Assembly (NCBI RefSeq): GCF_002288005.1 | Contig: NZ_CP016771.1 | Coordinates: forward strand, 868,001 to 932,000 | Source of the DNA: Candidatus Nanopelagicus hibericus | GTDB lineage: Bacteria > Actinomycetota > Actinomycetes > Nanopelagicales > Nanopelagicaceae | Length of the DNA stretch: 64,000 nt | Direction: 5' to 3' | Part shown: positions 30,269-31,882 of the stretch, in pieces | Position numbering within the stretch: the stretch's first letter is position 1 | Layout: each line of letters starts with the position of its first letter | Position numbers and translations under genes: made by a program | Notes under the pieces: model-generated | The model's database searches: none | What the model saw: the letters and a program-made list of their open reading frames with translations, nothing else | What the model was told of the DNA's origin: nothing

Positions 30269-31681
30269 TTAAGAATCAAAGCCCAAGCCAAGTCGGTCTA
30301 ATAAGCGCAACCAAAGATTTCGCCGACCTTCATTTTGATCCGCCTTATTAATTGACCATTGAGTTAATCTGATAAATAAGAATCTAAAGGGTTCAGGTGG
30401 AAATGGGAATGGCTTATGTTTAACCATCGATAATTGCGTTGCTTCACTTTCAATTCCATCTAATAAATCCAACATGGTAGAGGCGCCAAATCTTGTGGTG
30501 GCAACCCCAAGGCCGGTATAGCCAAGAACGTAGGCAACTTTGTTATCAAATGCTTGCCCCCAAAATGGTGAAAATCTTGAGCAGGTATCAATTGCCCCAC
30601 CCCAACCATGGGTAAATTTAATTCCAGCTAATTGTGGAAAGGTTTTGAAAAAATGCTCAGCAAGCTTGGCGTAGGTTTCAGGACGTGCTTCATACTCTGC
30701 TCGCACCTTGCCCGCGTAGTTATAAACCGCGTCATATCCACCCCATAAAATCTCATTCTCTTTAGTTAACCTGTAGTAATGGAATTGATACCCAGCATCG
30801 GATAGTCCTTCCCGACCTTTCCAGCCAATGCTTTCTAATTGCGCAGCTGTTAATGGTTGGGTTACTAATTGAAAGTCATAAACTGCAATTACATACTTTT
30901 TCACACTCTTTATCAGGGGTGTGTAAATATTTGTAGCTAGGGCTACCTTATTTGCCCTAATGGAGCCATAAGCACTCTTAACCACAACATGACCACCATC
31001 ATCTATTAACTCTTCAACTTTAGAGTGCTCATATATTTTCACGCCTAGTGACAGACATGCTTTCTCTAAGCCCCAAACCAATCTGGCAGGGTCTACTAAA
31101 GCTGTGCCATCATGATCAAAGAGGGCGCCCTCATAAATCGGTGAGTTCACCAAGGCTCTAACCTGCTCTTTATCTAATACCTCAACATGATCACCAGTTT
31201 TATTTCTAGCGATCGCCTCCTCTTTTAATCCCACCATCTGCCAAGGGGCGACCGCCATGCGAAGCTCACCATTTCGCTCAAAATCACAATCAATCCCATA
31301 TTTTTTAATCGTTTCCTCGATTGCGTCAAGATTTTGCCTGCCCAATCTTTCAATTACTGCCATCTCATCAGCAAAGCGGTTGTAGCCATTAACAAAACCG
31401 TGGGTGAGTGAACCATTACAAAAACCACCATTACGACCTGAGGCACCACTACCAGTCTCGCCCATCTCAATAATTACTACCTCACGTTTTGGATCACGCT
31501 CCTTTGCAAGAAGTGCTGTCCAAAGGCCGGTGTAGCCGGCGCCAATAATGCAAAGATCAGTTTGAATATCACTTGTTAAGGCAGAGTGAGAGGCAGGCTC
31601 TAATGGATCAGCATCTAGCCAGTACTGAGCAGGTTGAAGATCTGCTAATGAGTTAAGAACAATTGGATTAATCGCTGGCAT
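30269..31681 (-). CDS. FAD-dependent amine oxidoreductase (PuuB-like)
   Basis: DAO-family flavoenzyme of 470 residues. The dinucleotide-binding GAGYTGLWTA lies near residue 48, the flavin-attachment-type SGRNGGF follows, and the C-terminal GYTGLGVATTRFG closes the FAD site. The architecture matches gamma-glutamylputrescine oxidase and related amine or N-methyl amino-acid oxidases. The frame is open to 31756, but ATG 31681 is chosen: it begins a normal N-terminus and has CGGAG seven bases upstream. That site lies in a strong hairpin in a structured leader. No puu genes are adjacent. Confidence 0.85.
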   Translation of the reverse strand: MPAINPIVLNSLADLQPAQYWLDADPLEPASHSALTSDIQTDLCIIGAGYTGLWTALLAKERDPKREVVIIEMGETGSGASGRNGGFCNGSLTHGFVNGYNRFADEMAVIERLGRQNLDAIEETIKKYGIDCDFERNGELRMAVAPWQMVGLKEEAIARNKTGDHVEVLDKEQVRALVNSPIYEGALFDHDGTALVDPARLVWGLEKACLSLGVKIYEHSKVEELIDDGGHVVVKSAYGSIRANKVALATNIYTPLIKSVKKYVIAVYDFQLVTQPLTAAQLESIGWKGREGLSDAGYQFHYYRLTKENEILWGGYDAVYNYAGKVRAEYEARPETYAKLAEHFFKTFPQLAGIKFTHGWGGAIDTCSRFSPFWGQAFDNKVAYVLGYTGLGVATTRFGASTMLDLLDGIESEATQLSMVKHKPFPFPPEPFRFLFIRLTQWSINKADQNEGRRNLWLRLLDRLGLGFDS

Positions 31682-31686
31682 GGGCT

Positions 31687-31751
31687 GACTCCGGTGTAAA
31701 CCGGATTCCACCCCTTTGCGTATTATTAAGTGGCCCGGGTCCTCCGGAGTC
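31687..31751 (-). promoter_or_regulatory. SD-occluding leader with two exclusive helices
   Basis: In the minus-strand RNA the ribosome-site arm ACCGGAGTC (31687-31695) can pair with the nearby TCCGGT (31700-31705, 4-base loop) or with the upstream GACTCCGG (31744-31751, 8 bp). The two helices share the same arm, so they cannot form together, and each blocks the ribosome site. A CCAC/GTGG helix may form between them. This is riboswitch-like, but it matches no class I know. Confidence 0.5.
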
Positions 31752-31833
31752 CACACCCATAACGCAGATCTTTATCTAGCAATCTGTGGTTCGTTACAGC
31801 TACAAACCTAATACTACCCTACTGCGCAATAAG

Positions 31834-31868
31834 AAAACCCCCGCACTCTAGGAGTGTGCGGGGGTTTG
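31834..31868 (-). terminator. intrinsic terminator after pstS
   Basis: A perfect 12-bp GC-rich stem (31835-31846 with 31856-31867) around a 9-base loop is followed on the minus strand by TTTTCTTATT. It lies 15 bases after the pstS stop codon. T-rich bases also follow on the plus strand, so it could work in both directions. Confidence 0.93.
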
Positions 31869-31882
31869 TTTTACTTAGTTAA

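Follow-up and report, generated by a model that had tools for sequence, protein, structure and literature searches.

The Leader and Its Target Gene

In the genome of Candidatus Nanopelagicus hibericus (GCF_002288005.1, contig NZ_CP016771.1), the gene for an FAD-dependent oxidase is preceded by a segment in which one arm can pair with either of two partners. This raises the question of whether the oxidase gene is controlled by a structured RNA and, if so, of what kind. The window analysed comprises 64,000 nt (868,001–932,000 of the forward strand of the contig). The coordinates below are positions in the window, and the gene and all parts of its leader lie on the minus strand.

The gene (30269–31681) encodes a DAO-type amine oxidase of 470 aa (PF01266, E = 1e-58; the best NCBIfam model, TIGR03329, remained below its cut-off). 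The longest ORF call for the oxidase, 30269–31756 (495 aa from GTG at 31756), overruns the leader; the conserved start is the ATG at 31681. The original prediction placed a riboswitch-like element at 31681–31760 and regarded it as GC-rich for an AT-rich genome, and this range indeed has 57.5% GC against 43.2% in the window. Based on the match of covariance model R1 (31803–31679; 119.5 bits, E = 1.6e-27 in a search of the one genome) and on the alignment A2 of 100 leaders, the whole structured leader occupies 31682–31803, that is, about 122 nt from the predicted transcript start (~31803) to the base before the start codon. The predicted element is real and longer than first thought: its 5′ half (31761–31803), which contains helix P2 and the 5′ strand of helix P1, was missed.

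Folding of the single sequence beats shuffled sequences only moderately (z = −2.3, 6 of 200). The leader is certain because of comparative evidence, which was absent from the single-sequence view behind the original prediction. Covariation, the relatives found and the position of the start codon bear out a structured, riboswitch-like leader of the oxidase: all 100 aligned leaders end at the start codon, and in every case where the contig extends further, the gene that follows is this same DAO-type FAD oxidase. The leader is a genuine structured RNA, whose existence and architecture are strongly supported.

The usual gene order in most genera is potD-potA-potB-potC-leader-oxidase-agmatinase, and a GABA aminotransferase gene is often located nearby, downstream. 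The ureohydrolase scores above the agmatinase cut-off, but the solved proteins closest to it are guanidinobutyrase, proclavaminate amidinohydrolase and ‘agmatinase 2’; its substrate could thus be a guanidino compound different from agmatine. In the genome of the window, potC and the ureohydrolase (agmatinase) gene lie at 835–837 kb, and the oxidase gene with its leader stands alone at 898 kb, behind pstS. This separation from the transporter genes indicates that the leader goes with the oxidase rather than with the transporter. It seems that the oxidase and its leader have left the pot operon in the genus of the window.

Some variants of this context should be mentioned. In the genome of the window, the potB/potC and agmatinase genes of the separated set are adjacent, without the oxidase, at G000:C1:835316-837554 (L251–L253). 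In one genome of genus g11 (L111:1-3665), a second-type pot set (B-C-D) and a 418-aa protein precede the leader in place of potDABC. In addition, paralogous oxidases with 43–45% identity and no detectable leader occur in some genomes alongside the leader-bearing gene (G258:C91, G262:C122, G273:C10 and G276:C22), and these may act on another amine.

Helices, Core and Covariation

The alignment A2 contains 94 distinct sequences among its 100 leaders. The 5′ part of the leader forms one arm, in which P1 (8 bp; CTGTAACG, 31792–31799, with CGTTATGG, 31757–31764) and P2 (6 bp; CAGATT, 31781–31786, with GATCTG, 31765–31770) are joined by a conserved one-sided GAAC-A bulge. Double-sided compensatory changes were found in six of the eight pairs of P1 and in all six pairs of P2, and 96.7% and 96.4% of the cells, respectively, are paired. 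Then follows P3, formed by GTGG (31751–31754) and CCAC (31730–31733), with a UA to GC exchange at columns 54/78 and a longer form in genus g5. In the genus of the window, the CCAC strand has an alternative partner in the GUGG of the ribosome site (31711–31708).

P3 encloses the core UCCGGAGGACCCGGG, which in the window reads TCCGGAGGACCCGGG (31734–31748) and consists of P3b (UCCGG/CCGGG) and the loop AGGAC. Nearly all of its columns are invariant across the 94 distinct sequences, and for this reason the core gives no covariation. A variable linker leads from P3 to AAGGGGUGA, then to the hairpin P4 (31690–31705; 96.2% of cells paired) and to the AUG at an almost fixed distance. The innermost pair of P4 covaries (UG/CG/UA/GC), and locus L107 compensates as CCAGC/GCUGG.

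As a whole, 94.4% of the cells over the distinct sequences pair, as opposed to at most 46% in slid controls. Double-sided changes affect 17 pairs and 240 cells, against no more than 10 pairs and 53 cells in the slid controls and with 0–1 of 500 shuffles; these counts lean towards the model since A2 was fitted to it, and alignment A1, made by sequence alone, agrees. Parsimony on a maximum-likelihood tree of 92 oxidase proteins gave 68 independent double-sided, pair-preserving steps, mostly in P1 and P2 with a few in P3 and P4, in comparison with 1–8 for slid partners. Compensatory change across homologous loci, proposed as a check of the element, is thus abundant, mainly in P1/P2.

Two helices had been predicted for this region. 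The first, a 6-bp hairpin with a 4-base loop (TCCGGT-TTAC-ACCGGA, 31705–31690), is P4. The second is an 8-bp helix between GACTCCGG (31751–31744) and CCGGAGTC (31694–31687), 50 bases apart. Both exist, and they exclude each other, as the 3′ arm of the hairpin is common to both. The distal segment GACTCCGG offers the full 8 bp only in the genus of the window (g1). Since an 8-bp Watson–Crick helix arises in 26 of 500 dinucleotide shuffles (about 5%), the claim could not rest on the single sequence.

Distribution and Search for Known Families

A DNA search with the leader revealed relatives in many genera of the order. Covariance model R1, built from 27 leaders, matched 122 of the 296 genomes of the order, in 10 of 17 genera; a few of the 122 were weak matches and turned out to be sensor-deleted forms. 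Across the class sample, 21 of 395 genomes were matched, all of the same family, under stricter filters by which distant forms could be missed. An exact-pattern scan of GTDB 220 returned 113 stretches, all in freshwater actinobacterial records with the exception of one Streptomyces match. The latter (Streptomyces spirodelae, L175) is a chance hit in GC-rich surroundings that has no flanking helices. The carriers include the complete chromosomes of IMCC19121 and IMCC26077, and the genome of the window has a single copy. The leader is confined to the freshwater acI actinobacteria (Nanopelagicales), where more than 100 species of these abundant bacteria carry it. In several assemblies it was found twice, at contig ends (G204:C54/C61, G236:C50/C73, G275:C8/C18 and G286:C33/C79), as if assembly graphs branch there, perhaps owing to strain variation.

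A search against known RNA families, also proposed for the element, gave no match. Rfam 15 (4227 models, including guanidine, SAM, cobalamin, TPP, FMN, glycine, potC and T-box) yielded only tRNAs over the window at the gathering threshold. For the leader itself at E up to 10, the only hits were BSnc120 and rdlD, far below cut-off and attributable to chance (15 bits versus gathering scores of 114 and 50). Five divergent relatives searched at E up to 5 had no match. To the eye, GGUG-AAUCCGG resembles the cobalamin core; this lead was discarded, as no cobalamin model matched at E 10. The leader thus matches no RNA family described in Rfam and is a previously unlisted element in front of one amine-catabolism gene of freshwater actinobacteria.

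Predicted Promoter and Transcription Start

A −10 box, TAGTAT, is located at 31811–31816 and predicts a transcription start at about 31803. The pattern TANNNT occurs 6–11 nt upstream of the leader in 80 of 98 loci (13/19 stand-alone, 67/79 in operons), compared with 0–16% at other offsets; in operons the box overlaps the stop codon of potC. A sigma-70 scan found no full two-box promoter at the leader, and the start at ~31803 is therefore a prediction. It had been reasoned that a start downstream of 31751 would speak against the element; the conserved box places the predicted start upstream of it.

No intrinsic terminator (a GC-rich hairpin followed by a U-run) was found within the leader, and transcription attenuation was rejected on this ground. 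Inspection by eye revealed no start codon or short upstream ORF kept across A2 that could serve as a leader-peptide attenuator; a minimal AUG-GGG-UAG is present in some A2 leaders, is missing from others and was rejected as not conserved. The only strong terminator-like hairpin of the region, CCCCCGCACAC...GTGCGGGGG, lies between pstS and the leader (31833–31869; terminator-like site 31837–31855) and would insulate the promoter of the leader in this genome.

Ribosome Site and Natural Sensor Deletions

The Shine–Dalgarno sequence (SD) of the window, AAAGGGGTGG (31708–31717), which in most relatives is AAGGGGTGAT, forms a duplex of −11.8 kcal/mol with the 16S tail AUCACCUCCUUUCU; in the window's own genome the tail reads GGAUCACCUCCUUUCU. 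Over the 100 leaders the median for AAGGGGUGAU is −13.7 kcal/mol, whereas the hairpin arm in which the ribosome site had been predicted reaches a median of only −3.3 kcal/mol. Such weak anti-SD pairing does not support the arm, and the stronger pairing of AAGGGGUGAU places the SD upstream of P4, 22–25 nt before the AUG. This order of SD, hairpin and AUG is unusual; plausibly, P4 loops out the excess distance.

We also read the sequence upstream of 20 oxidase genes that had no strong model match. In nine g11 loci (L287, L294–L299, L302 and L303), the potC stop codon is followed by CAACTACTAGTAGTAATTGCAGAGGTGATTTCCGG...CCGGAAA...ATG, so that the sensor is gone with the SD and P4 kept. Two g2 loci (L285 and L286) have a different join, from the potC coding sequence to AAGGGGTGA or AAGATGTGA, with P4 and ATG kept. 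Four loci (L290, L292, L300 and L301) have lost the whole leader; at L289 and L304 a contig end or a stretch of N interrupts the sequence. By the different joins, P1–P3 were lost independently in at least two lineages, with SD, hairpin and ATG retained. Deletions of this type point to two separable parts, namely a removable sensor and a retained initiation platform.

Proposed Mechanism

Based on the above results, we suggest that the leader probably represents an undescribed class of cis-acting translational riboswitch for an amine of the polyamine pathway, in which ligand binding and switching are read from sequence and context. The nature of the ligand is a reasoned guess and is offered tentatively. 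In its fullest form, a possible scheme that we likewise put forward with reserve, the new class would directly sense putrescine, agmatine or a related guanidino amine and turn on amine catabolism in acI, with the core masking the SD and the hairpin bridging SD and AUG.

The sensor domain would comprise the P1–P2 hairpin with its GAAC-A bulge, P3 and the invariant core. It would be followed by the initiation platform, made up of the strong SD, P4 and the AUG about 24 nt past the SD. In the permissive fold, P3/P3b and P4 would be formed and the SD free, P4 looping out the extra distance to the AUG, and AAAGGGGUGG would be where the ribosome binds. The closed fold would instead pair the core with the SD and the 5′ arm of P4 (CCGGAGGACCC with GGGGUGAUUCCGG); in the genus of the window, the predicted 8-bp helix together with CCAC/GUGG would take its place. 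A small molecule of the polyamine/agmatine pathway would most likely tip the balance towards synthesis of the amine oxidase in the presence of its substrate. The machinery of an SD-masking switch appears to be there, and we infer which fold the ligand would stabilise from the catabolic role of the gene, which makes induction by substrate the likeliest logic.

Folding calculations would allow two competing states that are close in energy. Beside P1/P2, RNAalifold on A2 chose to pair the core with the SD and the 5′ arm of P4 (columns 61-64/107-110 and 69-71/97-99), a solution that 98–100 of the 100 leaders retain and that excludes P3b and P4. When open and closed folds were forced, the median difference was 3.2 kcal/mol (interquartile 1.0 to 5.8), a calculation in which the columns of genus g1 were shifted by one. 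With this corrected, the window's own leader gave −42.4 kcal/mol for the open fold, −39.9 for the predicted alternative with the SD buried and −32.0 for the general closed fold. The last value is poor, and the genus would thus need its own version. Covariation cannot be expected from the switching helices, because these are made of invariant CCGG/CCC/GGGG segments; in L107, P4 is kept by compensation and one closed-fold pair is broken.

Further features count against the riboswitch reading. The leader is known from one lineage and one gene only, and some relatives have no leader at all in front of the oxidase gene. Most riboswitch classes serve several genes.

The restriction to one lineage and one gene would also suit a protein, either a repressor or an autoregulatory RNA-binding factor, that binds the leader in place of a metabolite, the core being its binding site, by which the SD is covered or freed. 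A nearly invariant core within a varying helical frame fits such a site, as does the lack of an Rfam riboswitch match. However, the gene encodes a flavin oxidase, which is not among the known RNA binders, the clusters examined show no recurrent regulator gene next to the leader, and the metabolic operon context favours metabolite sensing. We consider a protein site rather unlikely. A static, non-switching leader that would enhance translation or stabilise the mRNA through a strong SD, P4 and a 5′ hairpin as protection is more doubtful. P1–P2 begins a few nucleotides from the predicted 5′ end, as a protective hairpin would, and SD and P4 are kept where P1–P3 are lost. The same losses, however, show that SD and P4 evidently suffice without P1–P3, and a simple protective stem needs no nearly invariant 15-nt core over about 100 species.

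The mechanism first envisaged, with a ribosome site in the 3′ arm of the hairpin that is masked by the 8-bp helix (31751-31744/31694-31687), is very improbable in that exact form. Both helices exist in the window's leader, and the 8-bp fold lies 2.5 kcal/mol above the aptamer fold with P1/P2 kept and becomes the overall minimum if P1/P2 are given up. Against it stand the restriction of the full complement to g1, the weakness of the arm as an SD in this leader (−6.1 versus −11.8 kcal/mol for the upstream SD) and the chance frequency of such helices. What survives is that in this genus the 8-bp fold also buries the upstream SD through CCAC/GUGG, and it may represent a local version of the switch. 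Conservation of a protein N-terminus from GTG 31756 (495 aa) is ruled out for practical purposes: the frame is open up to that codon in the window's genus, but the leaders differ in length by single bases, a stop codon interrupts the frame a few codons ahead of the ATG in most relatives, the changes in the helices are compensatory, and loss of the sensor leaves the ATG in place.

Comparison with Known Systems

The riboswitch reading invites comparison with known regulatory RNAs. The preQ1-II and SAM-II riboswitches are SD-sequestering translational riboswitches. Like these, the leader is compact, lies directly before the start codon and would have its ribosome site masked in one state; its sequence and fold are unrelated, and the leader has a hairpin between SD and AUG.

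Convincing natural polyamine riboswitches are rare: earlier claims were unconvincing, a spermidine class was published in 2023, and the authors of that work anticipate others (PMC10853860). The spermidine riboswitch is a variant SAM-I aptamer on biosynthetic genes (PMC10853860). Both it and the leader are tied to polyamine genes, agmatinase (speB) among them (PMC10853860). In contrast to this SAM-I-type RNA of biosynthetic genes, the leader gave no SAM-I match in Rfam and is part of an uptake/oxidation operon. Guanidine riboswitches I–IV (ykkC, mini-ykkC, ykkC-III and class IV) are linked to it by the ureohydrolase of its operon, which resembles guanidinobutyrase and ‘agmatinase 2’. Guanidine-III is an H-type pseudoknot (PMC5696562), and Actinobacteria are among the carriers of ykkC-III RNAs (PMC2864571); the leader differs from all four classes in architecture and conserved sequence, and Rfam searches at E up to 5 or 10 gave no match.

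The potC RNA motif (RF01751; Weinberg et al. 2010, PMC2864571) is likewise a candidate cis-regulatory RNA of aquatic bacteria, named for a polyamine-transport permease gene. It is listed as marine only (PMC2864571) and named for potC, whereas the leader follows potC, controls the oxidase and has no Rfam match. The literature yielded no polyamine riboswitch of acI or Actinobacteria; a motif unique to the 2017 list of 224 candidate RNAs (PMC5737381), absent from Rfam, could still match. The first acI genome paper reported thiamine, FMN and cobalamin riboswitches, the only models searched there, and nothing like the leader (PMC5301498).

With a short ligand panel and an RNA of 125 nt, the riboswitch hypothesis is directly testable, and the natural sensor deletions are ready-made controls. 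In most lakes the acI are the bacteria of highest abundance, and spermidine/putrescine transporters are found in all strains sequenced first (PMC5301498). If our reading is true, a metabolite switch on the acI amine oxidase would bear on the use of dissolved organic nitrogen in fresh water.
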